A stretch of DNA of 64,000 bases. Source: Phycisphaerae bacterium (lineage in GTDB: Bacteria; Planctomycetota; Phycisphaerae; UBA1845). Of the stretch, positions 27,723-44,580 are shown one piece after another; position 1 is the first letter of the stretch, and each line of letters begins with the position of its first letter. The stretch lies in the NCBI GenBank assembly GCA_029260215.1, contig JAJDDQ010000051.1:124001-188000 (forward strand). Reading direction: 5' to 3'. The notes under the pieces were generated by a model. It ran no database searches. It had not been told where the DNA came from and saw nothing but the letters and a program-made list of their open reading frames with translations. The translations under genes and the position numbers were made by a program.

Positions 27723-28007
27723 CCCACCCCCAACCCGTCACAACACAAACCAGTCACTTCAACCGAGTATGCACCCACCCCCTCCCATTTCTTTCATCGA
27801 ATCCGCACAATCTCCCCAAATCACACAAGAAACCCGCCCAATCGACAAAAAACCAACTTTTTCGCGATTTTGTGGACCTCCTCGGATCGGATTTTTCCGC
27901 TACCTCGCCAAGCTGTTCACCCCGCGCGCGCACCGCGCGAATCAAGCGCGACGTTCTATTCATGTACGACGCGGGCATTTCGCCACACGTCAAAGGAGAA
28001 CAGAATC

Positions 28008-29315
28008 GTGACAAACGACCAACACGAACCAGTCTTCCCGCTCCTGCCCTACCAGAAGCAGGCCCTCACATCCGAAGCACGATTCCGCTGGTCATGCTGG
28101 TCCAGACAAACCGGAAAATCATTCACCATGTCCCTCCGCCGAATCATCCGAGGACTCAGACGCCGAAGAAACCAAATCTTCCTCTCCGGCAGTGAACGTC
28201 AAAGCCGCGAACTCATGGAAAAAGCACGCCAACATTGCCAGGTACTCCAGGTCGGCGCCCAAATGATCAACTCAAGTGCCTTCGACGACCTCTCCTTCAG
28301 CCGCATGGAACTCAGACTGCCCAACGGCGTCCGCGTCATAGGCCTGCCCGCAAACCCCGAAACAATCCGAGGCTTCACCGGCGATGTCTTCCTCGACGAA
28401 TTCGCCGTACACGCCGACGACCGCGAAATCTGGGCCGCAGTCTTCCCCACACTCCTCCGAGGAGACGGAGAACTCGACGTCGCCTCAACACCCAAGGGCA
28501 AGAGCAACATGTTCTACAAGCTCAGCCAAAACGAACGCTTCGAACGTTCGCACCTCACCCTGCCCGACGCCATCGAGCAGGGCTTGAACATCGACGCCGA
28601 AGAAATCCGCCTCTCAATGGGCGACGACGAACTGTACAGACAGGAATTCCTCTGCGAATTTCTCGACGAATCCACCGCATTCATCACCTACGAACAGATC
28701 GCCGCCTGCGAAGACCCAAGCCTCGAGAAAGAACCAGGCCTCGACCGCCTCGACGACTTCACAGGAGACCTCTTCGTCGGCGTGGACGTAGGCCGAAAAC
28801 GCGATCTGACCGTCTTCTGGGTGGTCGAGTGTCAGGACGAGACACTCACCACACGCGCCGTCTTCGTGCGACGCAACCTCCCCTTCCGCGCACAATACGA
28901 ACTGTTCTCACACATCCTCTCCCTCCCCAGAGTCCGCGCCGCCTGCATCGACGCCGGCGGACTTGGCATGCAGTTAGCCGAATCCGCCGTCGAGGACTTC
29001 GGACGCCACAAGGTCGAACCCGTCATCTTCACCAACACCATAAAAACCGACCTCGCCGGACGACTGCGCACCGCCATCGAAGAACAACGCATCCGCATCC
29101 CCGCGGACGAAGCATTACGCAACGACTTCCACAGCCTCCGTCGCACCGTCACATCCGGAGGCCTCATGCGCTTCGAAGCAGACCGAGGAGAAGCAGGCCA
29201 CGCCGACCGCTTCTGGGCCGCAGCCCTCGCCCTGCGCGCCGCCGGAAAAATCACCGGCCCAAAACACTGCCTCAGCGTCAAACCCCTCGCATTCGCCACA
29301 AACGGCGCTTGGTAA
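28008..29315 (+). CDS. Phage terminase large subunit (Mu gp28-like)
   Basis: A 435-residue DNA-packaging motor protein. The ATPase has a Walker-A-like 'WSRQTGKSFT' (about residues 31-40) and a Walker B 'DVFLDE' ending at Asp130-Glu131, with the coupling motif 'VASTPKG'. The RNase-H-like nuclease begins 'VGVDVGRKRDLTVFWVVE' with metal ligand Asp260, then 'ACIDAGGLGMQLAE' and 'HADRFWAAALAL' near the end. The GTG at 28008 follows AAAGGAGAA; earlier frame to 27870 has no phage-like content. It opens the capsid cluster. No small terminase precedes it. In Mu the homologue follows gp27, absent here. Confidence 0.9.
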   Translation: MTNDQHEPVFPLLPYQKQALTSEARFRWSCWSRQTGKSFTMSLRRIIRGLRRRRNQIFLSGSERQSRELMEKARQHCQVLQVGAQMINSSAFDDLSFSRMELRLPNGVRVIGLPANPETIRGFTGDVFLDEFAVHADDREIWAAVFPTLLRGDGELDVASTPKGKSNMFYKLSQNERFERSHLTLPDAIEQGLNIDAEEIRLSMGDDELYRQEFLCEFLDESTAFITYEQIAACEDPSLEKEPGLDRLDDFTGDLFVGVDVGRKRDLTVFWVVECQDETLTTRAVFVRRNLPFRAQYELFSHILSLPRVRAACIDAGGLGMQLAESAVEDFGRHKVEPVIFTNTIKTDLAGRLRTAIEEQRIRIPADEALRNDFHSLRRTVTSGGLMRFEADRGEAGHADRFWAAALALRAAGKITGPKHCLSVKPLAFATNGAW

Positions 29316-29338
29316 AAACGATGTCGAAAGGACCACTC

Positions 29339-30817
29339 ATGAACTTCGCCCAACGACTAATGAATCGCCTCAAGAGCAATCAGTCTGATCCGAACCGCAA
29401 CCACAAAGGGATCGCGAATGAAGCGTCCGGACCAAAATCCACGTCGATTACGGAGCAGCACCAATCAGAACCGCGACACCGAATGCGCCCGAACAGGAAG
29501 CATGAGGGGAGCGGCCGGAACATGAGTAGCGTCAAATACGCAAACAAGCACCACAGCGCAAACAGCGCCATCCCACATGCGGATTCCCCCACCCCCAAAC
29601 CAGGCCTATCCCTCACCCCGCGCCCAGAAGACTCCTGGCGAGACTACCCCTCCGCCAACCTCACCCCAAAACGTCTCCTCGCCATCCTCCGCGAAGCAGA
29701 CGCAGGCTCACTCGCCTCCGCCATGCAGCTCTACGAAGAAATGGAAGAAAAAGACCCACACCTCTACGCCGTCGCCAACACCCGCCGCCTCGCCCTCACA
29801 GGTCTCGAATGGACCGTCCGACCCGACCCGCACGCCGAAGGCCAATCAATGGCCCTCGCCCAGCAGGTCGCCGACTACTGCCGAAAAGTGCTCACCACCC
29901 TCGACTCCTTCGACGACGCGCTCCAGCACCTCTCCCTCGCCACAGGCCGAAACATCGCCGTCGCAGAACTCGTCTGGGAGGAGGGTGCCGAAGGCCTGAC
30001 ACTCGCAGACGTCGTCCCCGTGGATTTCACCCGCCTCACCTTCGACGACCTCGACGACCTGCGCATCCTCACCGCCGACGAACCGATCAACGGCATCGAA
30101 CCACCGCACGGAAAATTCATCATCCACACCCCCCAAAGCGCCACAGGCCATCCCACCCGAGGCGGACTCCTCCGCGTCACCGCCCTCGTCTACCTGGCCA
30201 AGAACCTCGCATTGAAGGATTGGATGATCTTCGCGGAAGTCTTCGGCATGCCCGTTCGTATCGCCCGCTACGAACCGTCCGCCAGCCCCGAAGAAAAACG
30301 CGAATTGCTCAAAATGCTCGAATCACTCGGCGCCAACGCTGCCGGCGTCTTCAGTCGCGCCGTCGATCTCCAGATCATCGAAACCAAACGCGGCACCGCA
30401 GGTCCACCCTACGAACGACTCATCGAATTCATCAACCGCGAAATCAGCAAAGCCTGGCTCGGCCAAACACTCACCACCGATACCTCCGGCGCACGCGGCA
30501 CGTTCGCAGCCAGCAACGTCCACGAACAGGTCCGGCGCGACGTCCTGGCCGACGACCTCCGCAAGGAAGCACGCACAATCAGACGCGACCTCCTGACCCC
30601 GCTCACCCGCTTCCGCTTCGGCGCAGACGCTCCCGTACCCCAATTCGTACGCCGCGTCCGCCGAACACACACCGCCGGCGAGTTGGCCGACCTGCTCGGA
30701 ACCGCCGTCAACGACCTCGGCTTCCGCGTCCCCGCCGACTGGGCACACGAATCCCTCGGCATCCCCCGCGCTGCCGAAACCGCCACAGTCCTGCCCGGAA
30801 AACGAAACACGGAGTAA
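29339..30817 (+). CDS. Phage portal protein (DUF935, Mu gp29-like)
   Basis: A 492-residue portal, the ring through which DNA enters the capsid. From about residue 95 it matches the Mu gp29 pattern: 'LTPKRLLAILREADAGSLAS', 'LYEEMEEKDPHLYAVANTRR', 'LEWTVRPDP', 'GLLRVTALVYLAKNLALKDW', 'FAEVFGMPVRIARY', 'LTTDTSGARGTFAAS'. The ATG at 29339 follows GAAAGGA. Residues about 44-60 translate a family A-type DNA repeat, so the ATG at 29522, which follows it, may be the ancestral start. Separated by 23 bases from the terminase stop. The C-terminal MuF-fusion seen in some phages is absent. Confidence 0.9.
   Translation: MNFAQRLMNRLKSNQSDPNRNHKGIANEASGPKSTSITEQHQSEPRHRMRPNRKHEGSGRNMSSVKYANKHHSANSAIPHADSPTPKPGLSLTPRPEDSWRDYPSANLTPKRLLAILREADAGSLASAMQLYEEMEEKDPHLYAVANTRRLALTGLEWTVRPDPHAEGQSMALAQQVADYCRKVLTTLDSFDDALQHLSLATGRNIAVAELVWEEGAEGLTLADVVPVDFTRLTFDDLDDLRILTADEPINGIEPPHGKFIIHTPQSATGHPTRGGLLRVTALVYLAKNLALKDWMIFAEVFGMPVRIARYEPSASPEEKRELLKMLESLGANAAGVFSRAVDLQIIETKRGTAGPPYERLIEFINREISKAWLGQTLTTDTSGARGTFAASNVHEQVRRDVLADDLRKEARTIRRDLLTPLTRFRFGADAPVPQFVRRVRRTHTAGELADLLGTAVNDLGFRVPADWAHESLGIPRAAETATVLPGKRNTE
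29470..29515 (+). repeat. Dispersed repeat family A variant inside the portal gene
   Basis: 'agaaccgcgacaccgaatgc' followed by 'aggaagcatgaggggagcgg' aligns with the variant copy at 30853. Divergent; assignment rests mainly on the shared order of blocks. Confidence 0.5.
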
Positions 30818-30822
30818 CCGAA

Positions 30823-31851
30823 ATGTCGCAATCAATCGCAATGACCAAACAGACGAACAGAGCCGCGCCCCTGAGTGCGACCAAGGCGGAAGCACGAAGG
30901 AAGCGGGGAACAAAACTGGTACTCGGAGCAAAAAAAATGAACCAAAAACCAAACATCCCAAAGGAACACGAACTCACCCCGCTGGACGCCGCCGGACTCA
31001 CCGAAGGCAAAGTCCCCAAGCGCGTCCGCATCGCACCCTGGGGACAGGTCGAAAGCACACGCGGGCAATTTGTCGTCGATGACGAATCCGCCACGCTCAC
31101 CCAAAAAGCATTCGCCGAACACGGCACCGACCTGCCCGTGGACTACGAGCATCAAACGCTCGGCGGCGAATTCGCCGCACCCAACGGACAGGCACCCGCC
31201 GCAGGCTGGATCACCGCCATCGTCGCGGAACCGGGCGTCGGACTCTTTGCCGACGTCCGATGGACCGACCGCGCCAAGAAACTGCTCGCCAACCGTGAGT
31301 ACCGCTACCTCTCGCCCGTCGCACTCGTCCGCCGCTCCGACCGCAAGCTCATCGGCCTGCACTCGGTCGCCCTCACCAACAAACCCGCCATCGTCGGGGC
31401 CGACCCCATCGTCAACCGCGACAGCCAGGTGCGTGTCACCATTGCGGCACTCTGCGATCGACTCCAGTTGGCCCCGACCAGCGACACCGAAACCCTGCTC
31501 GCCGCCGCAGCCGCCCGATTGGAGGAACTCGATCGCGAACGCACGCACGCCGCCGCCGAGCGAAAGGTCTCCGACGCGACGCGAACCGGCAGAATCGTCC
31601 CCGCACAGCGGGACTTCGCGCTCAAACTCGCATTGAAAGACCCGGAAATGTTCGACGAATGGATCGCCGCCGCCCCCGTCGTCGTACCCCTGGGCCACAC
31701 CGCACCGCCGGACGCAGGCGCCCTCGAACGCCCACTCCGGGCGCTCGCAGCCCGCGCCGCCGCTGAGTTCCGCACGCATCCGGAGTTGGCCGCCATCACA
31801 AACGAAAACGCCTACATCGCCGACGCACTGCGTAACCACGCGTCGCGATGA
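30823..31851 (+). CDS. Mu gpI-like phage head protease/scaffold
   Basis: A 342-residue protein of the Mu protease I type. Core region: 'VRIAPWGQVESTRGQFVVDD', then 'LPVDYEHQTLGGEFAAPNGQ' with a candidate catalytic or structural His/Glu pair, 'AAGWITAIVAEPGVGLFADV', 'REYRYLSPVALV', 'GLHSVALTNKPAIVG'. The second half is charged and helical as in scaffolds. The ATG at 30823 follows GGAG, five bases after the portal stop; a second ATG at 30937, also after GGAG, lies just beyond a family A repeat that is translated into residues ~10-30, so either could be the true start. It would mature the capsid by cleaving scaffold. Confidence 0.85.
   Translation: MSQSIAMTKQTNRAAPLSATKAEARRKRGTKLVLGAKKMNQKPNIPKEHELTPLDAAGLTEGKVPKRVRIAPWGQVESTRGQFVVDDESATLTQKAFAEHGTDLPVDYEHQTLGGEFAAPNGQAPAAGWITAIVAEPGVGLFADVRWTDRAKKLLANREYRYLSPVALVRRSDRKLIGLHSVALTNKPAIVGADPIVNRDSQVRVTIAALCDRLQLAPTSDTETLLAAAAARLEELDRERTHAAAERKVSDATRTGRIVPAQRDFALKLALKDPEMFDEWIAAAPVVVPLGHTAPPDAGALERPLRALAARAAAEFRTHPELAAITNENAYIADALRNHASR
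30853..30915 (+). repeat. Dispersed repeat family A variant at the 5' end of the protease gene
   Basis: 'gacgaacagagccgcgcccc' then 'ggaagcacgaaggaagcggg'. The start matches the family A core exactly; an extra internal segment separates the two halves. It is in frame and would be translated if the 30823 start is used. Confidence 0.75.
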
Positions 31852-31910
31852 TGATCGAAATTGAGTTTTTTTCTTGCAACGCAAAGCCATAACGCAAGGG
31901 GTGACAAGAC

Positions 31911-32354
31911 ATGGCACTGACAGCAAACCGTGACGTAGATCATTACGTGGACCAGGAGCTGCGCTCCGTACTCGTCAAGAGCGGCGTCCACATCTACAAA
32001 GGCGCCTTCGTCGTTGTCGAGGAGGCCAGCGGCTACGCCCAACCCTTCGTCACAGGCGCCGGCGCGGGCACAGCCAACTTCTTCGTCGGCATCGCCTATG
32101 AGGAGGCCGACAACACCAGCGGAAACGACGGAGACATTTCCGTCCGCGTCTTCACACAAGGCGACTTCGGACACCCCGTCGCCGCCGGCACAATCACCAG
32201 CGTCGGCAAAAAAGTCTACGCAAGCAGTGACAACACGTTGGCCCTGACCGCATCCAGCGGTGCTTTCGTATTCATAGGCCGCGTGCAGGACTGGATCAGC
32301 GGCAGCGAATTCGTCATCCGCCTGCACGGTGTCGCCGACGCAGACGCGACCTAG
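31911..32354 (+). CDS. Capsid decoration-like protein (DUF2190-like)
   Basis: A 147-residue Gly/Ala-rich, strand-rich protein between the protease and the major capsid gene, the position of decoration or stabilisation proteins. It has 'VHIYKGAFVVVEEASGYAQP', 'ANFFVGIAYEEADNTSGNDG', 'VRVFTQGDFGHPVA' and 'GKKVYASSDNTLALTASSG', a pattern of 'x is cause for switching to a constant' capsid-surface proteins resembling the DUF2190 family. AAGGGGTGA precedes the ATG. It would sit on the outside of the shell. Confidence 0.7.
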   Translation: MALTANRDVDHYVDQELRSVLVKSGVHIYKGAFVVVEEASGYAQPFVTGAGAGTANFFVGIAYEEADNTSGNDGDISVRVFTQGDFGHPVAAGTITSVGKKVYASSDNTLALTASSGAFVFIGRVQDWISGSEFVIRLHGVADADAT

Positions 32355-32416
32355 GAGGCCATCGCGCACAACGTAAAACGGATTGACAAAGAACACATTT
32401 TTGGGGGAACCGATTC

Positions 32417-33331
32417 ATGGCTGTCATCAACACCGGGCTGCTCACCAAGGGGCTGCGCAGCGAATTCTTCAACCGACTGGAAAACACACCGGCTCACTTC
32501 ACGGAGTTGGCCACACGCATCGTCAGCAACTCCGACAGCGAAACCTACCGCTGGTTGGGGACCGTACCCAAAATGCGCGAATGGGGCACCGGTCGCTTGG
32601 CCAAGGGGCTGCGCACCGAGTCTTACTCCGTCGAAAATCTCAAATACGAATCGACGCTTGAAGTCGATCGCGACGAGATCGCCGACGATCAAACCGGCCA
32701 GATCCGCGTGCGCATCGGAGAGCTGGCCCAGCGCGCCGCCACGCACAAGGACTACCTCATCGCCCAACTGCTCAACAGCGGTACGTCCGCCGGTTTCACC
32801 AGCTACGACGGCGCGACTTTCTTCAGCAACGCCCACGTCTCAGGCCAAAGCGGGAGTCAGGACAACGACGTGACCAGCGCCGCAGCAGCGCCGGGTGATC
32901 CCACGACAGCCGAGTTCAAAACGGCGCTGCGACAGGCCATCGCCACCATGATGACCTTCGCGGATGACCAGGGTGAACCGTTGCCCATCGGTGCGGGCGG
33001 CTTCGTGTGCGTCGTGCCGCCGACTATGTTCTTCAGCGCCCTTGAAGCCATCAACGCCACCGTGGTGGACAACACCACCAACGTCCTGAGCGGTGCCGCC
33101 AAGGTCGTCGCCATGCCCTGGCTGACCGACGCGAGCGCGTGGTACTTGCTCAAGACCGACGGCGTGGTGCGCCCGTTCATTTTTCAGGACCGCGAGCCGG
33201 TCGAGTTCAACGCGCTGGCGGAGGACAGCGAGGAATCGTTCAAACGCGAAAAACTCCTCTTCGGCGTCCGCGCCCGCTACCGCATCGCTTACGGCTACTG
33301 GCAGTACGCAGTACGCACCGACTTCGTCTAA
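32417..33331 (+). CDS. Phage major capsid protein (Mu gpT-like)
   Basis: A 304-residue HK97-fold shell protein of the Mu T family. Diagnostic stretches: 'GLLTKGLRSEFFNRLENTP', 'VPKMREWGTGRLAKGLRTES', 'YESTLEVDRDEIADDQTGQI', 'LLNSGTSAGFTSYDGATFFS', 'RPFIFQDREPVEFNA' and the C-terminal 'FGVRARYRIAYGYWQYAVRT'. Length equals that of Mu gpT (about 305), so no domain seems lost. GGGGGAACC precedes the ATG. It is followed by a 209-base gap carrying a family F palindrome. Confidence 0.93.
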   Translation: MAVINTGLLTKGLRSEFFNRLENTPAHFTELATRIVSNSDSETYRWLGTVPKMREWGTGRLAKGLRTESYSVENLKYESTLEVDRDEIADDQTGQIRVRIGELAQRAATHKDYLIAQLLNSGTSAGFTSYDGATFFSNAHVSGQSGSQDNDVTSAAAAPGDPTTAEFKTALRQAIATMMTFADDQGEPLPIGAGGFVCVVPPTMFFSALEAINATVVDNTTNVLSGAAKVVAMPWLTDASAWYLLKTDGVVRPFIFQDREPVEFNALAEDSEESFKREKLLFGVRARYRIAYGYWQYAVRTDFV

Positions 33332-33385
33332 GCCCGAGGGCCGACAAGCGGGGGCTTAGTTGATTGACAGGAGCTTGAAGTGTGG

Positions 33386-33404
33386 CACCGGTTTTCAACC
33401 GGTG
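33386..33404 (+). repeat. Dispersed palindromic repeat family F, copy 1
   Basis: 'caccggttttcaaccggtg': eight-base arms around a three-base centre. It lies between the capsid gene and the gp36-like gene. Two further copies lie at 34899 and 34931. Confidence 0.8.
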
Positions 33405-33540
33405 CAAACGATGGTGCCCATCGCGGGACTGAGGAGCAGAGACTCAAAGGGACGGTGGGGTGGGTGGGAATGTCCCTGTGTTGCATTGAGCGGTCGTTCC
33501 GCGACACGATAAACACCGAAAAAAAGAGGAAAACACAGCA

Positions 33541-33984
33541 ATGAGCTACATCACAAACAGCGACATCGAAACACGATTGGGCACGACGCGGTACGTGCAG
33601 TTGACCGACGACGCCGGGACGGGGTCAGCCAACACAGCCGTAGCGGACGAAGTGCGGCTTGGGGCTGTGGGGGAAGTTGATAGCTACCTCGCGCCACGCT
33701 ACGCCGTTCCGATCGATCTGGTCACGCACGTCGAGACCGCCGGGCCGATCAAGAGTGCGGCGCTCGATCTGGCTGAGTATCGGCTGCACGCGCGGCGGCG
33801 CGAGGTGCCGGTCGGCGTGATCGGCAAGCGCGACACGACACTGGCCTGGTTGCGGAACATCGCAGCCGGTGAGGCTTCGCTGCCTTCGGTGGCGGAGCTT
33901 CCCGCGAACGCAGCCGCAGGGCCTCGGGCAACGACGACGGGCGCAGCGCGCGTTCTGTCGCGCGAAGAGCTTGAAGGGTTTTAG
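33541..33984 (+). CDS. Mu gp36-like protein (DUF1320), head-tail connector region
   Basis: A 147-residue protein with the DUF1320 look: 'YITNSDIETRLGTTRYVQLT', 'VADEVRLGAVGEVDSYLAPR' and 'SAALDLAEYRLHARRREVPV'. In Mu and FluMu the gp36 gene follows the major capsid gene T (after gp35), and here it is again the first gene downstream of it. It probably forms part of the head-to-tail connector. GAGG lies upstream of the ATG. The C-terminal tail is Ala/Thr-rich and probably disordered. Confidence 0.85.
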   Translation: MSYITNSDIETRLGTTRYVQLTDDAGTGSANTAVADEVRLGAVGEVDSYLAPRYAVPIDLVTHVETAGPIKSAALDLAEYRLHARRREVPVGVIGKRDTTLAWLRNIAAGEASLPSVAELPANAAAGPRATTTGAARVLSREELEGF

Positions 33985-34047
33985 CGGAAAACAGAAAGTC
34001 GAAAGAGGAAGTCGAAAACCGAAAATTTGGGTCTTGGGGGGTTTGTT

Positions 34048-34383
34048 GTGAGTGAGCTTGGGGGAATCGAAAACGCGGTGGTGACGTTGATCGGGGGGAT
34101 TCTGTCCGGGGGGCAGGCGGCGTTTCGGTCGGTGGCGGGTTTTTCGGGTGCGGACCGCCGAAAGGCCTCCGCGTTCTCACGAAGTCTGAATCAGCCGGCG
34201 GCGGTGGTGGCCTACGCGGGGCGACTGCGCGGCGACGCAGCCGACGCCATCGTGGGGCTGCCCAAGCTCAGCGTCTTTGTGTCGGCCGTGAATTTGCGCG
34301 GCGGAAAAGACCCGCGCATCGGGGACAGTGCGACGCTCGGCGGATTCGATCTGCTCGGGCTGACCATGTCGGAACTCGACTGA
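34048..34383 (+). CDS. Mu gp37-like (DUF1834-like) protein
   Basis: A 111-residue protein beginning 'IENAVVTLIGGILSGGQAAF', reminiscent of gp37-type phage proteins that open with a short helix and are followed by a beta domain. The assignment rests mostly on position directly after the gp36-like gene; similarity by eye is modest. I chose the GTG at 34048, which follows a G-rich run; an in-frame TTG lies at 34027. Six bases separate it from the next gene. Confidence 0.5.
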   Translation: MSELGGIENAVVTLIGGILSGGQAAFRSVAGFSGADRRKASAFSRSLNQPAAVVAYAGRLRGDAADAIVGLPKLSVFVSAVNLRGGKDPRIGDSATLGGFDLLGLTMSELD

Positions 34384-34389
34384 GCCGTC

Positions 34390-34884
34390 GTGCAGACGGA
34401 CCGCCGGCTCGTCGCACTGGATGAACAGGCATCGAGCGCGGACGCCACCGGCGTGGTGTACGAACAGCGCTACGCCGTCGATCGTGTCAACACCCTGTCA
34501 CCGCCGACGTTTGACGGCGTGGCGTTGGCTGGTGCGGAGAGCATCGTTGAGGTCGGCATCGGTGCGACGTCGGTCGATGTGCAGTCGTTCGCATTCCCGG
34601 GGATCGACGGCGTTTTTCGTAATCATCTCGGCACACGCATGCGCGAGATCAACTGGGCCGGCCAACTGCGCGCAGCCGACGACACGGCGCTCAACACGAT
34701 CGAATCCGTCATTGAGGCTGCGGTCGCACGGGCCGGTGCGTTCACCATGACGGATTCGTTCAACCGTTCGTTCGCCGAGTGCGTGTGCGATCGATTCGTG
34801 CGCAGGGGGCCTCGACGACGACACCCGGTGAGCGGTATGGCGTTGCAGGGGTTCGAGCTGCGGTTTGTGCAACTGGTTGTTTAG
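34390..34884 (+). CDS. Putative phage tail/baseplate protein (Dit-like)
   Basis: A 164-residue protein. The central stretch 'GTRMREINWAGQLRAADDTA', then 'IEAAVARAGAFTMTDSFNR' and 'CVCDRFVRRGPRRR' has the layout of distal-tail or baseplate proteins ('ring-forming' beta domain with a 'T-D-x-x-G/N-R' turn). This is inference from pattern, not a certain family match. The start is the GTG at 34390. It is followed by about 100 bases containing two family F palindromes, then the hub-like gene. Confidence 0.45.
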   Translation: MQTDRRLVALDEQASSADATGVVYEQRYAVDRVNTLSPPTFDGVALAGAESIVEVGIGATSVDVQSFAFPGIDGVFRNHLGTRMREINWAGQLRAADDTALNTIESVIEAAVARAGAFTMTDSFNRSFAECVCDRFVRRGPRRRHPVSGMALQGFELRFVQLVV

Positions 34885-34898
34885 TGGGCCGTCGACCG

Positions 34899-34949
34899 CA
34901 CCGGTTGGAAACCGGTGCCACACAGGACTCCACCGGTTGCAAACCGGTG
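34899..34949 (+). repeat. Dispersed palindromic repeat family F, copies 2 and 3
   Basis: 'caccggttggaaaccggtg' at 34899-34917 and 'caccggttgcaaaccggtg' at 34931-34949, 32 bases apart, both followed by 'c.acac'. They occupy the gap between two phage-like genes. Confidence 0.85.
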
Positions 34950-34983
34950 CTACACGGAAGACCTTTCTTGAAGCGGGTGAAAC

Positions 34984-37107
34984 ATGCAGGTGATTGTGGG
35001 ACGCGAAAGAGAAGTTGAACTGGTGACAGCCAGCGTGGAAACGTCGCCGGGGAGCGGGGTGTTCGAGGTCGATGACCGCCTGCGTGTCGAGGAGGTGCGC
35101 ATCGGGAGCGACGGCGATCTCTCGACGGCGCGTTTCACGGTGCGGCTGGACAACACGTTCGACACCGCAGCCGCTCGGGCACGCTACGCGGCGGACCTGC
35201 GCGTGATCGCGAACGTGCGCAGCGACGAGCAGTCCGGCGACCGCGTCCTGTTCGACGGGCACGCACCGATGAGCACAGCCAAGTGGTTCGGCGGACCGGG
35301 TCGTGCGGAAGAGTCGTTCGGCTTTGTGGCCAACGGCGTCTACGGGCGTCTGGCGCGCGACGTCGACGCACAAATCTACGGCCGGCGCATGCGCAGCGGC
35401 CTCATTGAAGACGGGCTTGCGACCGACCCCGGCGCGTGGGCCGACCGCAGCGTGCTGGTGACGGCCGAAACGTGCGTGTTCAACCCGGACGGTGCCGGCA
35501 ACCGATCGGTCACACCGCTGAACATCACACTGCCGGACGGTACGACGCGCCGCGTGCATATTTTCACGCACGACGAAGACGCCAACGGGCAACCGTGGAC
35601 TTATCTACAGGCTCTTCGCTATCTCGTATGGTTCCACGCACCGCGTTGCGGGCCGGTGTTGGACGGCAACGTGTTCGCGAGTACGGATGCGTTCATCGAA
35701 TCGCTGCCGAACGCGGGTGGATCGAGCATGTTGATCCGGCGGTTGTTGCAGCCTTGTGCGTCGCTGGTGTGTGAAGCCACCAATTTGGTCGAGGCGCTGA
35801 CGCTGCTGGCGGACGACGCGGGTATCCATCTGACGATCGAGAGCGAGCGCGACGGTGCGGGGGTGCGTTCGAGCCTTCGCGTGTGGGCGGCCGGCGATCA
35901 GACGCGACGCAGCCTCAACCTGGCTCGGGGTGGATTTCACCCGGACGGTACGAAGCGATTCGATGTGTCGTCTCTGGCTGCCACCGACGTTTTGCGGGCG
36001 AACGAAGTGCAGTCAGCCGACATCGTCTGGGACGATGCGAAGATCATCAACGCGCCCATCGTGGTCGGCGGGGTGAAGGCTTACGAGATGACCGTTCCGC
36101 TCGTTCCCGGTTGGCCTCCGACGGCGAACCTGGACAACGTGGCGGCTGTGGATCGTGACAATGCGAAGTCACTGGCGTTGACGCCGGGGCTGCTGGCGGT
36201 GCTGGGCAAGTCGGCGGAGCTGCTCGCGTGGTTTCGCATGTACCACGCGGACGGTCCCGAGTACGCCGCGAACCGTTACGTTGGCCGACGATGGGTGCTC
36301 AATGAAGATGGCCGATTCGACGGTGCGACGTACAACCGAAACATCCCGTTCGATGACTATCAGCCGTTCGATTTCGGAACAGTGACAGGCTTTGACATTA
36401 CGCGGCGCGGGGACTGGTCGCGTCGTTCGCGGCGGTTCCTGCCTGCGATTACGAAGACGGCACTGGGGGCGGGCTTCGGTGTGTACGTGGAATTCAGCTT
36501 CGACTCGGGCGCGACGTGGGCGCGGGCGTCGGGTGATGTTTCGGTGGCGGTTGACCCGACGGGCGTGGTGTTTGAGGCGGCCAACACGACGACGATCGCG
36601 CCGCCGGGCGTCGATCCGTTGGAGCAGAATCTCTGGTACGCGATTATCGATCAGACGTTCCGCGTGCGCGTGACGGCTGTGATCGAGGGGGACGAGCGAT
36701 TGATCGCCAAGTCAGGCCCGGACGCCCGCGTGACGCCGACGCTGCTGACCACGTCGCGTATCGACTTCGCACCGAACACGTACGGGTTCGCGACGCGCCT
36801 GGGCACGACGAACGCGCTGGCCAGCGTGAACCCCGGCGGCGACGACATCGAGCGCGACGATTCGACAGCCATCGCGCTGCGGGCCGACGTGCTGCGCGAG
36901 CGCAACGAGGATCGCCGTGTGTCCGCCAAGCCCGTAGTGCCTTGGTTTGACACTCGATTTGACGTGGGCGATGAGGTGGCGGCTGTTCGCGGGCGGGGGC
37001 TGTCGCTGGCGACGCGGACGGACGGTGCGACGCGCGGTCCGTGCGTTGTGGGCAAGCGCTACCGGTTCGACGGCGGGCGATGGGAGACGGAGCTGGATCT
37101 GGTCTGA
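34984..37107 (+). CDS. Large phage-like structural protein (possible baseplate hub)
   Basis: A 707-residue protein with no certain family. The first ~130 residues look like a hub beta-barrel: 'VDDRLRVEEVRIGSDGDLST', 'ARFTVRLDNTFDTAAARARY', 'DRVLFDGHAPMSTAKWFGGP'. Around residues 255-300, 'LVEALTLLADDAGIHLTIES' resembles the helix-turn of late-control/hub proteins. The C-terminal third is beta-rich and includes 'FGVYVEFSFDSGATWARASG'. Gene position after a Dit-like gene and before appendage-like genes fits a baseplate hub or tail spike, but no tape measure precedes it. The start codon context is weak. Confidence 0.5.
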   Translation: MQVIVGREREVELVTASVETSPGSGVFEVDDRLRVEEVRIGSDGDLSTARFTVRLDNTFDTAAARARYAADLRVIANVRSDEQSGDRVLFDGHAPMSTAKWFGGPGRAEESFGFVANGVYGRLARDVDAQIYGRRMRSGLIEDGLATDPGAWADRSVLVTAETCVFNPDGAGNRSVTPLNITLPDGTTRRVHIFTHDEDANGQPWTYLQALRYLVWFHAPRCGPVLDGNVFASTDAFIESLPNAGGSSMLIRRLLQPCASLVCEATNLVEALTLLADDAGIHLTIESERDGAGVRSSLRVWAAGDQTRRSLNLARGGFHPDGTKRFDVSSLAATDVLRANEVQSADIVWDDAKIINAPIVVGGVKAYEMTVPLVPGWPPTANLDNVAAVDRDNAKSLALTPGLLAVLGKSAELLAWFRMYHADGPEYAANRYVGRRWVLNEDGRFDGATYNRNIPFDDYQPFDFGTVTGFDITRRGDWSRRSRRFLPAITKTALGAGFGVYVEFSFDSGATWARASGDVSVAVDPTGVVFEAANTTTIAPPGVDPLEQNLWYAIIDQTFRVRVTAVIEGDERLIAKSGPDARVTPTLLTTSRIDFAPNTYGFATRLGTTNALASVNPGGDDIERDDSTAIALRADVLRERNEDRRVSAKPVVPWFDTRFDVGDEVAAVRGRGLSLATRTDGATRGPCVVGKRYRFDGGRWETELDLV

Positions 37108-37131
37108 CGCGGTTCTTTGGATGGGGGCGGA

Positions 37132-37623
37132 ATGATGCAGCGGGTGCGTGTGCAGGTGGAGCGGATTCGGGCGTACGCGGGGGACGCGACGTTCGAGGTG
37201 TTTGGTGATCTCGGGACGGGCGTGGTTGATTTCGACCGCCCACTGACGCCGAGGCCTGTGCGGTTGTGGCCTGAGGCTGAGCGACGGGCGGGGCATGTGT
37301 TGGACGGGCACCTGGTCGTGCGTCATCTGGACGCGATCAACCCGGACGGGCATGTGGAGGGCGAGCACCTGGGGGCGGAGCATCTCTATCCGGCGGCGGT
37401 GGTTGCGTACGAAACACCGGGGTACGTCTTTGGCCGGTTTCAGCACGCGGTGCGCATGGTAGACGGTGCGGGGAATGTCTCGCCGTCGGCGTTCGCGATC
37501 GTGACGGTCAACAGTGCACCGACAGTGCCATTGGGTGTCACCCGGAGCGGTTACGACGCTGTGACGGACCAGGTGAGTTTCGCGTTTGTGCCAAGCCGGT
37601 TCGATCCGGTGGCGGGGAAGTAG
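37132..37623 (+). CDS. Phage-like appendage protein with FN3-like C-terminus
   Basis: A 163-residue protein of unknown family. The second half ('YVFGRFQHAVRMVDGAGNVS', 'VNSAPTVPLGVTRSGYD') reads like a fibronectin-type-III or Ig-like strand pattern found in phage tail appendages. Two adjacent ATGs (37132 and 37135) follow a G-rich run; an ATG at 37117 is also in frame. Its stop is 23 bases from the next start, so it belongs to the same transcript. Confidence 0.5.
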   Translation: MMQRVRVQVERIRAYAGDATFEVFGDLGTGVVDFDRPLTPRPVRLWPEAERRAGHVLDGHLVVRHLDAINPDGHVEGEHLGAEHLYPAAVVAYETPGYVFGRFQHAVRMVDGAGNVSPSAFAIVTVNSAPTVPLGVTRSGYDAVTDQVSFAFVPSRFDPVAGK

Positions 37624-37646
37624 GGCGAGTTTAAGGGGGTTTTGTG

Positions 37647-38492
37647 ATGGCGGTGATTTATCCGAGTGAAGCCTATCCGCTGGAAGCGGCGGTTCAGGGG
37701 TTGGATGCGACGATCGATGTGCGTACGGGGTTGGCGTACATCGCCAAGGGTGTGGGGCCTAACAGCACGCCGTCGTATGAGATTCAGTACAACCGTCGTT
37801 TGCAGCGGCAGAACAACGTGCTGGCTGCGCTGCGTGCGGGGATGGTGGTGGACGAGGGCAGTACGCGCATCGGTGTGTATCCGATCACGTACCGTCTGAG
37901 GGGGCTGACGAAATCGTTTGACGGTGCGACGGCCCAATCCGTGCCGGACGGTACGACGCGGCGCGTGTACCTCGACGCGGGCAACACGTTGCAGATTCAG
38001 CCGACGTTTCCGTCGGACCTGACCGCGCACTTTCCTCTCGCGACGGTGACAGCCAACCTCGGTCTGCTGACGATTGTCGATGAGCGGCCTGCGGTGCTGT
38101 GGGAAGTGTCACCGGTTGGCACGACCGGTGCGACGATTCCGTTCGCACCGAGCGTGTTCCTGTCCGGGACGCTGAGTGTGAAGGTTTATGAGGCTGGCTG
38201 GGTCGCGCCGGTGGATTTCACGCTGCGCGACGCGACGGGCCTGGTGAACACAGCGCCGGTGGGTTCGAGCCTGATCGCGGATGTGCGTGTGGACGGGGTT
38301 TCGGTGTTCGCGCAGCAGGCGGACATGGTCGTGATCGCGGCGGGTCAGACGCTGGACACGTCGGCGAAGGTGGATGCGCTGGTTACGGCTGGTTCGGTAC
38401 TGACGTTCGAGGTTGAGCAGATCGGCTCGACGACGCCCGGTGCGGATCTGACGATCGTGCTGAGCGGGTTGTGCTCGACGGATATCGTGTAG
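37647..38492 (+). CDS. Phage-like structural protein of unknown function
   Basis: A 281-residue protein. Nothing in it matches a family I can name. It is almost entirely beta-strand-like with short Gly/Pro turns ('GVYPITYRLRGLTKSFDGAT', 'TLSVKVYEAGWVAPVDFTLR', 'GADLTIVLSGLCSTDIV'), consistent with a fibre or appendage. AAGGGGG precedes the ATG at 37647; a GTG three bases upstream is an alternative. Gene order places it among the adsorption-type proteins. Confidence 0.5.
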   Translation: MAVIYPSEAYPLEAAVQGLDATIDVRTGLAYIAKGVGPNSTPSYEIQYNRRLQRQNNVLAALRAGMVVDEGSTRIGVYPITYRLRGLTKSFDGATAQSVPDGTTRRVYLDAGNTLQIQPTFPSDLTAHFPLATVTANLGLLTIVDERPAVLWEVSPVGTTGATIPFAPSVFLSGTLSVKVYEAGWVAPVDFTLRDATGLVNTAPVGSSLIADVRVDGVSVFAQQADMVVIAAGQTLDTSAKVDALVTAGSVLTFEVEQIGSTTPGADLTIVLSGLCSTDIV

Positions 38493-38591
38493 CGCGGAGT
38501 TGGTTTGGTTGAGGTAGCTGTGACGCGCTGTCATTGAAGCGGTGCGACACGCAAGGCGGAATCATTTTCATTCAAAAGGGGGAATCAAACG

Positions 38592-38900
38592 ATGGGATAC
38601 GGTGAGATTTACGATGCGGCGACTGATGCGGTTCATGTGTTGCGCAAGCAGGCTGCGGTGGCGTGTGCGAAGGCGGCGGCGGACATTTTGAATGAATCGC
38701 CCGCGACGGCCAACCACGCGCAGCGTGTGCAGTGGGCGCGTCTGGTGATCAAGCCCGCCGGTCCGACCGCGATGGCGGAACGAATGGTCTGGAAGATTCT
38801 GGAGAACGCGACGATTCAGGCCGCACCGACCACGGCGACGGACAGCGATGTTCAGTTCGTGGTGAATGCGCTGGTCGATACGTTCGCGGGCGAGGAATAG
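38592..38900 (+). CDS. Small helical phage-like protein
   Basis: A 102-residue, mostly helical protein: 'HVLRKQAAVACAKAAADIL', 'TANHAQRVQWARLVIKP', 'DVQFVVNALVDTFAG'. Small proteins with this 'NHA.R..WA' core occur in phage structural clusters next to fibre genes, usually without assigned function; that comparison is from memory. It may be a chaperone or a structural linker. It is preceded by 'aaaagggggaatcaaacg', which contains a strong Shine-Dalgarno sequence. Confidence 0.55.
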   Translation: MGYGEIYDAATDAVHVLRKQAAVACAKAAADILNESPATANHAQRVQWARLVIKPAGPTAMAERMVWKILENATIQAAPTTATDSDVQFVVNALVDTFAGEE

Positions 38901-38936
38901 GACGAGGCTGAGGCCTGAGATGGATGGGGAGTGGTG

Positions 38937-39446
38937 ATGGCGAACAAGATTTATGTGAATCAGGAAGCGGCGGTCACGTTCGGAACGAACACGGACACGG
39001 TGACGTGTACGATCAAGAATCTCGCAGCCGGTGCGGGGCGGGTTTCGGCGCAGCTCGATCGGGGGGCCGGGGCGCGGGCCGAGGAGTTTGAATGGCGGGC
39101 GAAATTCACATTCGCGACGACGCCGGTGGTGGGTGAAGCCATCGATCTTTACCTGAGTCCGTCGGACGGATCGATTCAGGACGGAGACCTGGGCACGTCC
39201 GATGCGGATGTTGACGGCGTGCTGGGCAAGGGTGCGGTGGCGGATGTGGTTAAGAATCTTTACTACCTCGGATCGGTGGTGGTGCAGAAGGCCGACGCGA
39301 CGCAGTCGATGAAGGCCGGCGGACGGTGCCGGATCGCGTCGCGTTATGTTTCGCTCGTGGTGCATAACAACACGGCGGACGCGCTGGGTACGGTCGATGC
39401 GGATCAGCAGGTTCGATTGATTCCCAGCCCGGCGGAGATGCAATGA
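38937..39446 (+). CDS. Phage-like beta-rich structural protein
   Basis: A 169-residue protein. It has 'VTCTIKNLAAGAGRVSAQLD' and a long acidic loop 'SDGSIQDGDLGTSDADVDG', then 'VKNLYYLGSVVVQKADATQS' and 'YVSLVVHNNTADALGTVDAD'. The shape suggests a beta-sandwich virion protein; the family is unknown. GGGGAG precedes the ATG at 38937. Its stop overlaps the next start in an ATGA arrangement, so translation is coupled to the LamG-like gene. Confidence 0.5.
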   Translation: MANKIYVNQEAAVTFGTNTDTVTCTIKNLAAGAGRVSAQLDRGAGARAEEFEWRAKFTFATTPVVGEAIDLYLSPSDGSIQDGDLGTSDADVDGVLGKGAVADVVKNLYYLGSVVVQKADATQSMKAGGRCRIASRYVSLVVHNNTADALGTVDADQQVRLIPSPAEMQ

Positions 39447-40255
39447 GACATCGCTTGAGCAGATTTCAACCATTGGGCTGGGGTGATGCGGCGCGGTCGC
39501 GGGGTGAGTCGGTTCGGCCTGAGCTATGGCCTGACGCGGCGTGGTATCCGACGCTGGGGCCGACGGGCAAAATACTTCGCGATGTTGGCGGGCGCGGGCG
39601 TCACGGATTGGCCACCAACATTGCGGCGGCGGATTTGTGGTCCACGGAAAACCCGTTCGGGCGCGTGCTGCGTTTCAGTGGGTCGGCTGGCGGCGAAGTC
39701 GTCGAGACGTCCTACACGCGGGCGCTGGGCGATTTTACGTGCGTGGCGTGGTTCCTGGCGACGGGGGCCGGCGAAGCGTTCAGCCGCGTGGTGGACAAGC
39801 GTTTCGATTTTGGTTTTTGGATGGGACGCAATCAATCGTCGGCGAACAGTTGGGGTGCGGGTATTCGCGAGACGTCCGGTGATGGGTACGGCGATTTTCT
39901 GACGCTGGGTGACGGGTCTTGGCATCAGCTTGTGTGCCGGCGGCGCGGGACGGAAAAACTCGTGCTGGGCAATGGCGGCTCGGTGATGTCGGTGACCACG
40001 GTGACGTCGGCGTTGCTCAGTACGGATACGCTCAACATAGGCAACGACACGCCGTGGCGTACTTCGGCGCTGGATGGTTGCGTCGGTCCGGTGCTGTTGT
40101 ACGAGCGGGCGATTTCGGATCAGGCGATTGTGGAATTGTTCGACGATCCAATGAGGCCTTTGCGGCGGGGGCGGCGCGTGTATGCCAAGACGGTGTCGAT
40201 CGCCGGGTCGCTGCCGGTGGTGGCGCATCAGCGCCGGATGATGGAGGGCGTGTGA
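39443..40255 (+). CDS. LamG/concanavalin-A-like lectin-domain protein in the capsid cluster
   Basis: A 270-residue protein whose residues about 70-240 follow the LamG-like jelly-roll pattern: 'VLRFSGSAGGEVVETSYTRA', 'FTCVAWFLATGAGEAFSRVV', 'DGSWHQLVCRRRGTEKLVLG', 'LNIGNDTPWRTSALDGCVGP', 'LLYERAISDQAIVELFDDP'. Such domains bind glycans and occur on phage fibres and on cell-surface proteins. In this cluster it is a candidate receptor-binding component. It overlaps the preceding gene by four bases. No signal peptide is present, as expected for a virion protein rather than a secreted one. Confidence 0.75.
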   Translation: MRHRLSRFQPLGWGDAARSRGESVRPELWPDAAWYPTLGPTGKILRDVGGRGRHGLATNIAAADLWSTENPFGRVLRFSGSAGGEVVETSYTRALGDFTCVAWFLATGAGEAFSRVVDKRFDFGFWMGRNQSSANSWGAGIRETSGDGYGDFLTLGDGSWHQLVCRRRGTEKLVLGNGGSVMSVTTVTSALLSTDTLNIGNDTPWRTSALDGCVGPVLLYERAISDQAIVELFDDPMRPLRRGRRVYAKTVSIAGSLPVVAHQRRMMEGV

Positions 40256-40316
40256 TGCGGCGCGATTGGTGTTTTGGGTTGGTGGGTGTGTTGAGCGCGA
40301 AGGGAGTGGATCGAAA

Positions 40317-41114
40317 ATGTTTTTGAAACAAGGGACTGCACGGGTGGTTCGGGTGGGGCCTTTCCTGGATTCGACTGATGGCAACACGGCGGAGACGGCG
40401 TTGACGATTGGTCAGGCTGACATTCGGTTGAGCAAGAACGGCGGGGACTTTGCGTCCTCGAATCAGAGCGGAGGGGCGACGCACGACGAGGGCGGGTTTT
40501 ACGCGCTGACGCTTGATGCCACCGACTCGGATACGGTGGGTGAGCTGGAGTTGTACGTGCATGTGGCGGGTGCGTTGTACGTTAAGTCGCGGTTCTTTGT
40601 GCTGGCGGGGCAGGTGTACGATTCGATGGTGGGAACCGATCGTTTGCAGGTGGATGCGGCGGAGGTTTCGGGCAGTGCGGCTGCGGCGGATGCGCTTGAA
40701 ACCAACATCGGGAACCTGGACGCGGGCGTTTCGAGCCGACTGGCGAGTGCGGCTGCTCCGGCGAATTTTGTTGATCTGGCGATCACATCGGCCACGGGGC
40801 GCGTGACGGTTGGGACGAATCTGGACAAGACGGGGTACGACCTGGCTGGTGTGAAGAAGACGCTGGATCAGTTGAACGACACGTCGGCTTCGCAGGTGGC
40901 GGACGCGGTGCTGGATGAGCCGACGGCGCAGCATCAGACGGTTGGTTCGCTGGGTGCGGAGGTCAGCTTGGCCAAGGCGATGCTGGCCAACAAGCGCGTG
41001 CATACGAATTCCACGGGTGTGGATGTTGTGATGGGTGACGATGGTGTGACACCGGTGCGCACAATGACGCCGACGGATGGTGGGAATGATGTTATTGAAG
41101 TTGTGCCGAGTTAG
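40317..41114 (+). CDS. Phage fibre-like protein (BppU-like N-terminus)
   Basis: A 265-residue protein. The start 'MFLKQGTARVVRVGPFLDS' and 'IGQADIRLSKNGGDFASSNQ' is typical of phage proteins that open with a small beta domain like the BppU N-terminus. A helical, Ala-rich stretch follows ('DALETNIGNLDAGVSSRLAS', probably trimeric coiled coil), then 'TNLDKTGYDLAGVKKTLDQL', a linker seen in many predicted fibres. AGGGAG precedes the ATG at 40317. Likely a trimeric adsorption fibre or its adaptor. Confidence 0.6.
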   Translation: MFLKQGTARVVRVGPFLDSTDGNTAETALTIGQADIRLSKNGGDFASSNQSGGATHDEGGFYALTLDATDSDTVGELELYVHVAGALYVKSRFFVLAGQVYDSMVGTDRLQVDAAEVSGSAAAADALETNIGNLDAGVSSRLASAAAPANFVDLAITSATGRVTVGTNLDKTGYDLAGVKKTLDQLNDTSASQVADAVLDEPTAQHQTVGSLGAEVSLAKAMLANKRVHTNSTGVDVVMGDDGVTPVRTMTPTDGGNDVIEVVPS

Positions 41115-41140
41115 GGTGTTGTGCGTTGTGTTGTGCGGGG

Positions 41141-41170
41141 CGTCCACGCGGACTGAAGTCCGCGGCTCGT
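41141..41170 (+). repeat. Dispersed palindromic repeat family C, copy 1
   Basis: 'cgcggactgaagtccgcg' centre followed by 'gctcgt'. The same sequence with minor changes occurs at 44881, 47166 and 47584. It lies between two genes of the capsid cluster. Confidence 0.85.
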
Positions 41171-41206
41171 TGGGTGGGGGACCGGGTTACGCTGGAGTGT
41201 CGTGGT

Positions 41207-41947
41207 ATGGCATGTGAATTGTTTGACAAGTGGCTGGCGCATTACGATCCGATTCATCGGGGTTGGACGGTGCGCGGTATTGCAAACGGGGTGTCGGCTA
41301 TGAACGGGTGGGGCGTGCCGCGTGTTGCGGGCGGGTACAACCTGTTTCGCGGCGCGGGGTCGGCTGACGCGATTGATTTCACTTCACCGGTGGGAGCGGC
41401 GGGGCGTGATGCTGCGGGGATTTCCAATTTCGCGTGGCGGCCTCATGCGGTGTCGACGCGCTATTATTATGCGGTGAAGTCGATCGGTGGCGGTGGGGTT
41501 GAGAGTGATGGGTCGCTTCCGGCGCGGGTGGCGGAGTTTGACGGCGCGGGCGGCTTGATCGGGTTGCGGCCTAACGCGCCGACGGGGCTTGCGGTGCGTG
41601 CGACGGCGGGCGGAGCGTTCGCGCTTCGTTGGTTGTACGGGTCGCGACTTGAGGCGGCGGCTCCTTCGGCGTTTCGGGTTTATCACGACGCCGGGACGGG
41701 GACGGTGGACTACAACACGCTCGTGGCGAGCGTTCCTTACGTTCGCGGGCGTGCGCATTTTGTTTATGCGTCGGCTGGGTTCGCACATGGTTTGCGACGG
41801 GTGTGGGCGGTGCGTGCGGTGACGGACGAGGGTGTTGAGGATGGGAATGTGGTGACGGCGTTTGGGTGGGCTGACGCGACGGCGCCGCCGGTGCATCCGT
41901 CGGTGCGGGCGTCGAGCGTAGAGGCCGGTGAGGGGATGGAACCTTGA
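41207..41947 (+). CDS. Phage-like protein with FN3-like domains
   Basis: A 246-residue protein starting at the ATG at 41207, after GGAGTG. The N-terminus 'MACELFDKWLAHYDPIHRGW' is unlike a signal peptide. Two stretches have the fibronectin-type-III look: 'GGYNLFRGAGSADAIDFTSP...RYYYAVKSIG' split by a loop, and 'APTGLAVRATAGGAFALRWL...FRVYHDAGTG'. Such domains decorate capsids and tails and bind carbohydrates weakly. No specific family can be named. The stop overlaps the next gene's TTG start. Confidence 0.5.
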   Translation: MACELFDKWLAHYDPIHRGWTVRGIANGVSAMNGWGVPRVAGGYNLFRGAGSADAIDFTSPVGAAGRDAAGISNFAWRPHAVSTRYYYAVKSIGGGGVESDGSLPARVAEFDGAGGLIGLRPNAPTGLAVRATAGGAFALRWLYGSRLEAAAPSAFRVYHDAGTGTVDYNTLVASVPYVRGRAHFVYASAGFAHGLRRVWAVRAVTDEGVEDGNVVTAFGWADATAPPVHPSVRASSVEAGEGMEP

Positions 41948-42300
41948 GTATTCGATCGATCGAGCAACTTCGGGTGAATCAGTCGGCGATTATGGGGGAG
42001 TATCGTTCGCGGCGATCCGAGGCGGCGGTGACCGGTGCGGGCCGTGTTTCGGCGGGTGTCGATACGGTGGCAACGCTGGGCCGAGTGACAGGTGTTGTCA
42101 CTGTTGATGCGACGTATGGGCCTCATTTGACCGTGGCGGTTCAGGTTTTTGGGGGGACGCCGCCGCTTGCGTCGGATGCCGCGAAACCGATTCAGCGGGC
42201 CTACCCGACGCCGAATCATGCTGTGGCGGACTACGCGGTGAACGAGTTTGTCGAGCTGCTGCCCGCACGCGGTGCGCTGCTGGCGACGAAGCTGCAATAG
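41944..42300 (+). CDS. Small protein closing the capsid cluster
   Basis: A 118-residue protein of unknown function whose TTG start overlaps the previous stop codon (TTGA). It contains 'AAVTGAGRVSAGVDTVATLG' and 'YGPHLTVAVQVFGGTPPLAS'; the first ~25 residues look helical and the rest is undecided. The overlap ties it to the cluster, and it is the last co-directional gene before a gap with a family D repeat. Confidence 0.45.
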   Translation: MSIRSIEQLRVNQSAIMGEYRSRRSEAAVTGAGRVSAGVDTVATLGRVTGVVTVDATYGPHLTVAVQVFGGTPPLASDAAKPIQRAYPTPNHAVADYAVNEFVELLPARGALLATKLQ

Positions 42301-42447
42301 CTTTTTTGCGGGGCGGGATGATCACGTCTGTTACTGGGGGATGCACCCCTTCATTTCTTTGTTACATGGTTTTTGGGTTGACACGCCGGGCGATGTCGCG
42401 CTAGCTGTTGGTGCGGTTTTGGATCGTGTCGCCCTCGGGATTTGGAA

Positions 42448-42474
42448 CGTGTCGCACGCGACACGGCTAAACGG
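42448..42474 (+). repeat. Dispersed palindromic repeat family D, copy 2
   Basis: 'gtgtcgcacgcgacacggct' core followed by aaacgg. Identical over 27 bases with the copy at 47260 and the exact inverse (23 bases) of 27655-27677. Together with copy 1 it brackets the capsid cluster. Confidence 0.85.
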
Positions 42475-42498
42475 GTGCTGGAGGTGTTGGGCGCTCTT

Positions 42499-43017
42499 AT
42501 GATTGCCTGGGTTGTTAATTCTGTTCGCAAGTACGCGGTGCGCATCGCTTGGGTGACGCTCTTTGGGCTTCATGTTGCGCTGCTGGTGCGGTCGTTGTGC
42601 TTGGCTGAGGCGTCGATCGGCGGTCAGATTGCGCTGGCGGTTACCGTTGTTTTTCTGGGGCTTAAGAGTGTCGGTCTTGCGGCGCTTCGGTTTCGGTGTA
42701 GTCGCCGGGCTGTTGTCGCGGGGATGCTGATCGTCGTCGTGATGCATGCGGGCGTGATTGATCGATCGTTTGAGGCGGACGTTTCTTTGCTTTGGCCTTG
42801 GATGGTTCCGCTGGCGTTTTCTGTCTGGTGCCTGGATTCGCGCTGGGTTCGTGTTCTTGGCCGGCTGCTGTCGGCTGCGGCTGCGGCGCTGGGTTGTGGT
42901 GCCGGGATTTCGCATCTTTTTCGGGTCGCCTATGTGCGCGGTGATCTTGATTTCTCTGTTTTGCGTGGCTATTTCGTGTTGAATGCCTGGCCTCGCTGCC
43001 CTCCTTTTGCTGCCTGA
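42499..43017 (+). CDS. Multi-pass membrane protein of unknown function
   Basis: A 172-residue protein with about five hydrophobic helices ('IAWVTLFGLHVALLVRSLCL', 'QIALAVTVVFLGLKSVGLAA', 'AVVAGMLIVVVMHAGV', 'LLWPWMVPLAFSVWCLD'). No family is recognised. The frame extends upstream to 42442, but that part translates the family D palindrome, so I chose the ATG at 42499, which follows GGAGGTG. A possible -35 (TTGACA at 42378) has only a weak -10 partner. Confidence 0.6.
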   Translation: MIAWVVNSVRKYAVRIAWVTLFGLHVALLVRSLCLAEASIGGQIALAVTVVFLGLKSVGLAALRFRCSRRAVVAGMLIVVVMHAGVIDRSFEADVSLLWPWMVPLAFSVWCLDSRWVRVLGRLLSAAAAALGCGAGISHLFRVAYVRGDLDFSVLRGYFVLNAWPRCPPFAA

Positions 43018-44543: not shown

Positions 44544-44580
44544 TTTTTACGCGGGATTTAGTGCAGTGTCCCACATGGGT

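Follow-up and report, generated by a model that had tools for sequence, protein, structure and literature searches.

The gene cluster at positions 28008-42300 of the window, by which we mean the whole 64,000-nucleotide stretch of Phycisphaerae DNA analysed here, is probably an operon for the structural proteins of a phage-derived particle that has been domesticated, is inherited vertically and resembles a gene transfer agent (GTA). Computation shows that its head is domesticated, inherited vertically, under selection and of the DNA-packaging type, and that it is accompanied by a reduced tail. GTA function, the production of particles, a content of random host DNA, its delivery and a shape without a tail tube are inferred, and no experiment on particles, packaged DNA or transfer stands behind them. 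A first-pass annotation had offered two readings, a particle with a short tail or none, or else a domesticated capsid resembling a GTA; the two are supported together, by occurrence, a host-congruent tree, selection, split loci, the packaging motor and the reduced tail. Functional GTAs of known genetic basis are few. No paper on a GTA in Planctomycetota was found in open-licence PMC text, earlier reports elsewhere remaining possible, and our results point to an undescribed one in this phylum. Order-wide domestication from a Mu-like ancestor would represent an independent origin of GTAs.

Head genes and absent phage functions

All genes of the cluster lie on the plus strand, Mu-like head genes coming first and tail-end proteins alone thereafter. 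The common direction had been noted in the annotation together with a count of fifteen genes, which needs correction to 17 open reading frames (ORFs), or to 16 genes if an interrupted terminator-Dit gene is taken as one. Its head calls (TerL, DUF935 portal, Mu I protease, decoration protein, gpT capsid and gp36) agree with Pfam and PHROGs, with strong scores:

28008..29315, + strand: large terminase (TerL); Pfam Terminase_6N 1e-18 and Terminase_6C 4e-14, motif check and synteny
29339..30817, + strand: portal, DUF935, Mu gp29 type; Portal_Mu PF06074 1.6e-89
30937..31851, + strand: head maturation protease/scaffold, Mu I type; Mu-like_Pro PF10123 1.8e-53
31911..32354, + strand: decoration/cement-like head protein; phrog_1731 3.4e-25, PF09956 below cut-off
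32417..33331, + strand: major capsid protein (MCP), Mu gpT type; Mu-like_gpT PF10124 2.7e-59
33541..33984, + strand: head-tail connector, Mu gp36 type; PF07030 1.3e-20

TerL is the first cluster gene at every locus examined, and neither its Walker A and B residues nor the acidic residues of its nuclease vary among 46 sequences; judged from sequence, the packaging motor of the cluster is intact. MCP identity across family f1 is 67-83%, close to that of RpoB, and in some clusters (L054 of genome G019, and L040) the gap between portal and protease is enlarged by insertions of ~3-4 kb. Domesticated HK97-fold shells exist, among them the encapsulins, and it is conceivable that the capsid has been reused as a DNA-free protein compartment. 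TerL with its invariant ATPase and nuclease residues, the portal, the connector and the hub are under purifying selection, however, and would be needless in a compartment, a reading that we consider extremely unlikely.

Beyond gp36, LamG is the only strong match that Pfam and PHROGs detect among the cluster proteins. The phage functions that the annotation had reported missing were likewise missing from our searches. No conserved ORF that would correspond to a small terminase lies upstream of TerL in ~45 loci, no MuF gene lies between portal and protease in the window cluster, and no sheath, tube or tape measure was found in the cluster; searches of 36 whole genomes from the order, among them the 4.97 Mb assembly to which the window belongs, gave no match to the sheath family PF04984. 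Of the flanking proteins that were scanned, between 15.7 and 59.6 kb, none belongs to a transposase, integrase or replication family, and neither a lysis gene (holin or lysin) nor a regulator such as a repressor is linked to the cluster. Sheath, tube, tape measure and integrase were the findings that would have refuted the annotation's reading. As regards a Mu-like phage, a Mu-type head module in Mu order is present, and a contractile tail (sheath) and, within the scanned flanks, transposase or replication genes are not. The cluster shares with phage Mu and FluMu the TerL, portal, I protease, gpT and gp36 proteins, a gp37-like terminator fold and a gp44-like hub, but differs from them in lacking TerS, MuF, G, sheath and tape measure, in having no transposase that we could see, and in the fusion of its terminator to Dit.

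The identifiable flanks are host genes, with arginine deiminase and an FG-GAP/Peptidase_S11 protein upstream, and prolyl oligopeptidase and a sugar transferase downstream. The FG-GAP protein (24275-27517, minus strand) has 1080 amino acids (aa), five FG-GAP repeats and a D-Ala-D-Ala carboxypeptidase-like domain; it lies directly upstream of the cluster in divergent orientation, and relatives had no counterpart of it next to their clusters. A 1901-aa ORF at 53916-59621 on the minus strand has zero Pfam matches.

Distribution, inheritance and selection

In a class-wide sample of 298 Phycisphaerae genomes, Portal_Mu occurs in 60 of the 65 that belong to the window's order, mostly as one copy, versus 15 of the 233 from the rest of the class; a separate count found the portal in 31 of 40 relatives. 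The order is inferred to be UBA1845 of GTDB, from the family to which genome UBA1845 belongs. The result is the same for the capsid family (57/62 genomes), and of the five genomes of the order without a portal hit, at least G022 has the capsid, the fusion gene and the hub. The annotation had suggested searching other planctomycete genomes for the same gene order, and the cluster proved near-universal in this taxonomic order; the location of the cluster varies between genera, with the same flanking host genes retained within two sub-clades.

A tree of five or six concatenated head proteins from 34 genomes was compared with RpoB. The two are strongly correlated (Mantel r 0.92, reached in 0 of 2000 permutations; 0.90 within f1 and 0.92 within f8) and have 18 of 31 splits in common against 0.16 expected by chance, including 14 of 18 well-supported splits. 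For the same nearby pairs of genomes, dS is mostly 0.2-1.3 for the element and 0.6-1.6 for RpoB, values of the same order. The dN/dS ratio, a test that the annotation had called for, is ~0.04-0.3 in head and tail genes alike, as under purifying selection, and zero internal stops were seen in ~300 head-gene matches. We infer from these comparisons of sequences that the element entered before the order diversified and has been retained by selection.

An ordinary prophage is rejected by the distribution, the congruence of the trees, dN/dS and the split loci. That the cluster is an ordinary or decaying remnant, common merely by chance, could draw on the one window gene that is broken by a stop and on the genuine Mu-like prophages also present in some of these genomes; set against near-universal and usually single-copy occurrence, a host-congruent tree, dN/dS well below 1, head genes without stops and split loci that are intact, its probability is close to negligible.

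The split loci are found in several genomes. In the single-contig assembly of G008, TerL, portal and protease lie at ~2.45 Mb, and capsid, gp36 and fusion gene at ~0.42 Mb. In G037, G278 (family f5) and G230 (f8), TerL and portal are well inside one contig and the remainder is on another; the same pattern occurs in G033 and G027, but on short contigs. No replicating phage could travel with its genome split between two distant loci. This weighs on the possibility that the cluster is a virus or satellite which can still move, speciates together with its hosts and relies on helper phages for the functions it lacks. The differing location between genera and the hub and head genes held in common with phage relatives would suit such an element, whereas its transfer as one unit is made impossible by distant split loci, no integrase, replication or small-terminase gene is linked to it, and its flanks are conserved within sub-clades; we judge it very unlikely.

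GTAs have been defined by a caudoviricete-derived particle, an endogenized genome often distributed over several loci and mostly vertical inheritance, and further by the packaging of mostly random host DNA, an own genome that cannot be fully packaged and delivery to cells (PMC9662315). The cluster meets the first of these properties through its Pfam- and PHROG-supported head genes and its terminator, Dit and hub folds, the second through its location on chromosomal contigs and the splits in G008, G037, G278 and G230, and the third, with host co-diversification, through the correlation with RpoB (Mantel r 0.92), the sharing of splits and the order-wide occurrence. In the split-locus genomes, no single fragment can carry all cluster genes. 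Reported features of GTAs include split loci, co-diversification and GC-skew peaks (PMC9662315, PMC9836097).

Two observations concern the sampled lineages. The Mu-like head cluster of family f4 (L062, L064, L065, L127-L129, L135, L143-L147) has diverged strongly, and the window's TerL was not detected in it. This cluster is mostly present as one copy and agrees only weakly with the host tree (Mantel r 0.56); perhaps it represents a second domestication or a replacement. A record titled 'Alphaproteobacteria bacterium' (L036, JANQQE010000021.1) has the same coordinates as G004, a genome placed in the window's own family, and is probably a mislabelled MAG.

The terminator-Dit fusion and the reduced tail

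Downstream of the connector, the cluster encodes the following tail-end features:

34027..34884, + strand: tail-terminator and Dit fusion gene; alignment with relatives, AlphaFold (AF2) model of relative L026
34984..37107, + strand: baseplate hub of gp44/gp27/VgrG-type fold, 707 aa; AF2 model and fold comparison
37117..37623, + strand: conserved tail-tip protein, fold unidentified; 13 homologs in the same place, after the hub in relatives
37644..38492, + strand: tail-tip/fibre protein, N-terminal half conserved; 12 homologs, weak phrog_27064 8e-7
38592..38900, + strand: small variable gene; no homolog in relatives
38931..39446, + strand: variable gene; no homolog in relatives
39443..40255, + strand: LamG/ConA-lectin protein, variable; PF13385 1.5e-9, no sequence homolog at the same place
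40266..41114, + strand: fibre-like protein; short conserved segment in relatives
41126..41947, + strand: conserved fibre/tip protein; 15 homologs
41944..42300, + strand: last conserved cluster gene; 8 homologs, after the preceding gene (41126..41947)

In the annotation, the products after gp36 were read as separate gp37-like and Dit-like proteins. Both resemblances, unseen by Pfam and PHROGs, are backed by AlphaFold models and fold comparison, but the division into two genes is rejected: in alignment, a single gene of ~280 aa in 18 relatives corresponds to two window ORFs in the same frame (34027-34383 and 34390-34884). They are divided by an in-frame TGA at 34381-34383, within the terminator domain, where the relatives are open. 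This stop may reflect recent damage to the window copy or an assembly error; recoding of TGA was considered, since the relatives are all open there, and rejected, since TGA ends more window genes than any other stop codon. In the model of the fusion protein of relative L026 (pLDDT 82), residues 1-148 match the Mu tail terminator (Z 13.7 over 131 residues, 3.2 A) as well as other terminators, including that of RcGTA (6tba_4A, Z 10.9), and residues 150-278 match baseplate rings, SPP1 Dit among them (Z 10.8 over 118 residues, 2.8 A). The hub-like call for the 707-aa protein, also unseen by Pfam and PHROGs, agrees with fold comparison (Mu gp44 1wru, Z 15.2; PVC hub, Z 16.6), based on a model of moderate quality (mean pLDDT 62). 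Neither the hub alignment nor the fusion alignment found a match among PDB sequences.

The nearest sequenced phages have at most 38% identity in the portal and 36% in the MCP. Two IMG/VR phages (L180, L181) resemble the cluster in having the same head genes (MCP 63% in L180) and a hub of the same family (27-28%), but differ in that the Dit half is a separate ORF of 131-145 aa (profile probability 96-97%), which follows a retained ORF of tape-measure size (505 or 672 aa). The ORF right after gp36 in L180 weakly resembles the terminator half (profile 14.6%), with no such match in L181. Since Dit stands alone behind a tape-measure-sized ORF in these phages and is fused in the cluster, the tube and tape-measure genes appear to have been deleted, which on the simplest reading fused their two neighbours and left the hub directly on the neck. 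Such a tube-less architecture would, on our best reading, be new for a GTA-like particle, and the fusion suggests a way for a phage to lose its tail tube in one step with a usable neck and tip kept. It becomes testable whether a tail tube is needed for DNA delivery by GTAs.

Conserved genes (37117, the N-terminal half of 37644, part of 40266, 41126 and 41944) enclose a variable LamG/fibre segment without homologs, an arrangement expected of receptor-binding parts, and the LamG protein is likely to bind a receptor. Its LamG domain, noted in the annotation, was confirmed by Pfam (1.5e-9); an FN3 call was not. In 15 loci of family f1 (L037 14648-18031 and 14 others), a different downstream module, type B, replaces the terminator-Dit and hub set (type A). 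Its genes encode 160, 148, 148, 217, 164 and 260 aa, and its proteins have no Pfam or PHROG match except LamG and no profile match to type A. A tube protein could be among these unidentified genes, or be unlinked elsewhere.

For a GTA-like particle, we envisage that host-controlled expression would lead to assembly of a Mu-type capsid around the portal, and that TerL, in the absence of a linked small terminase that would steer it to the element's DNA, would fill the heads with chromosomal DNA. The neck would be closed by gp36 and the terminator-Dit ring, and hub and variable LamG/fibre proteins, seated directly on the neck, would bind the recipient cell, giving a tube-less particle for which lysis and entry factors would be supplied from elsewhere. 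The structural evidence fits equally a domesticated capsid, PBSX-like or of another kind, in which host DNA is packaged but not delivered and which acts as a killing device, a decoy or a particle for export of DNA or cargo. PBSX particles themselves contain host DNA but do not inject it (as noted in PMC12946183), and lectin and fibre proteins would serve for targeting in either case. A killing particle, however, would be expected to have a puncturing tail, yet sheath and tape measure are absent, and no immunity gene linked to the cluster was seen; we hold this alternative to be distinctly unlikely. Several points also count against the GTA-like reading that we prefer, namely the stop in the window's terminator-Dit gene, the lack of a linked lysis gene or regulator, the divergent family f4 and the type B tails.

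The tail of RcGTA has a tube. Like the cluster, the RcGTA elements (Rhodogtaviriformidae) of Alphaproteobacteria are inherited vertically, co-diversify with an order and sit on a GC-skew peak (PMC9662315, PMC9836097), and the RcGTA terminator matches the cluster's in fold. They differ in phylum and in capsid lineage, the cluster having a Mu gpT/DUF935 head, and in that the terminator and Dit are fused only in the cluster. Faecalibacterium FpGTA is similar in having a small structural operon over two loci and particles without an identifiable tail, but it belongs to another host phylum, and FpGTA II has a holin and endolysin (PMC12946183).

Strand asymmetry around the cluster

The cluster lies in an extended region of compositional asymmetry:

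24000..50000, no strand: domain of local GC/AT skew; its sign reverses within the co-directional operon, at ~33-34.5 kb

On the plus strand, GC skew is about -0.3 at 26-28 kb and reaches +0.3 at 40-49 kb, AT skew is mirrored, and third-position skew, which is -0.68 in TerL, has become +0.56 by the last cluster gene. Near the cluster in four genomes (G000, G012, G176, G004), genes of both orientations mostly have a common plus-strand skew. The sign thus mostly follows position rather than orientation, for which transcription or codon choice offers no ready explanation, and transcription is rejected as the cause on this ground; a chromosomal oriC is also rejected, dnaA being elsewhere in the genomes checked. 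The largest absolute skew lies at most 10 kb from the cluster in all five genomes of which 160-308 kb each were read. The 10-kb zone makes up 11-24% of each stretch (product of the fractions ~1e-4), with two of the five genomes from one genus and no genome-wide background in the comparison. A sign change within the operon is also present in G003, G114 and G014, G012 flips at the cluster's end, and other lineages have one sign throughout or, in some cases, little skew. The flip is not unique to the cluster: a second one, at 54 kb of the same contig (C47), runs through RNR/mfd housekeeping genes, and the skew is therefore only suggestive.

With that reservation, the cluster would sit on a local, orientation-independent GC-skew peak, as alphaproteobacterial GTAs do (PMC9836097), which raises the question of why such peaks occur at GTA loci of unrelated phyla. 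In Bartonella, BaGTA couples a GTA to run-off replication from a local phage-derived origin (PMC2697382). The likeness of the cluster to that system, a GTA near a local origin, rests on its strand-asymmetry domain alone, and it differs in the second flip and in that no replication gene was found at the centre of the domain; convincing iterons at the flip were not found either. A more specific and still unlikely proposal is that a tube-less GTA arose by deletion of tube and tape measure with fusion of terminator and Dit, and became coupled to a local origin of replication, within the operon or next to it, that would feed DNA into particles and leave the flip at ~33-34.5 kb. As a separate observation, three 21-bp direct repeats (GCGTGCGACACGATCCGCCCA) occupy positions 27666-27728, upstream of TerL, and are possibly a regulatory site.
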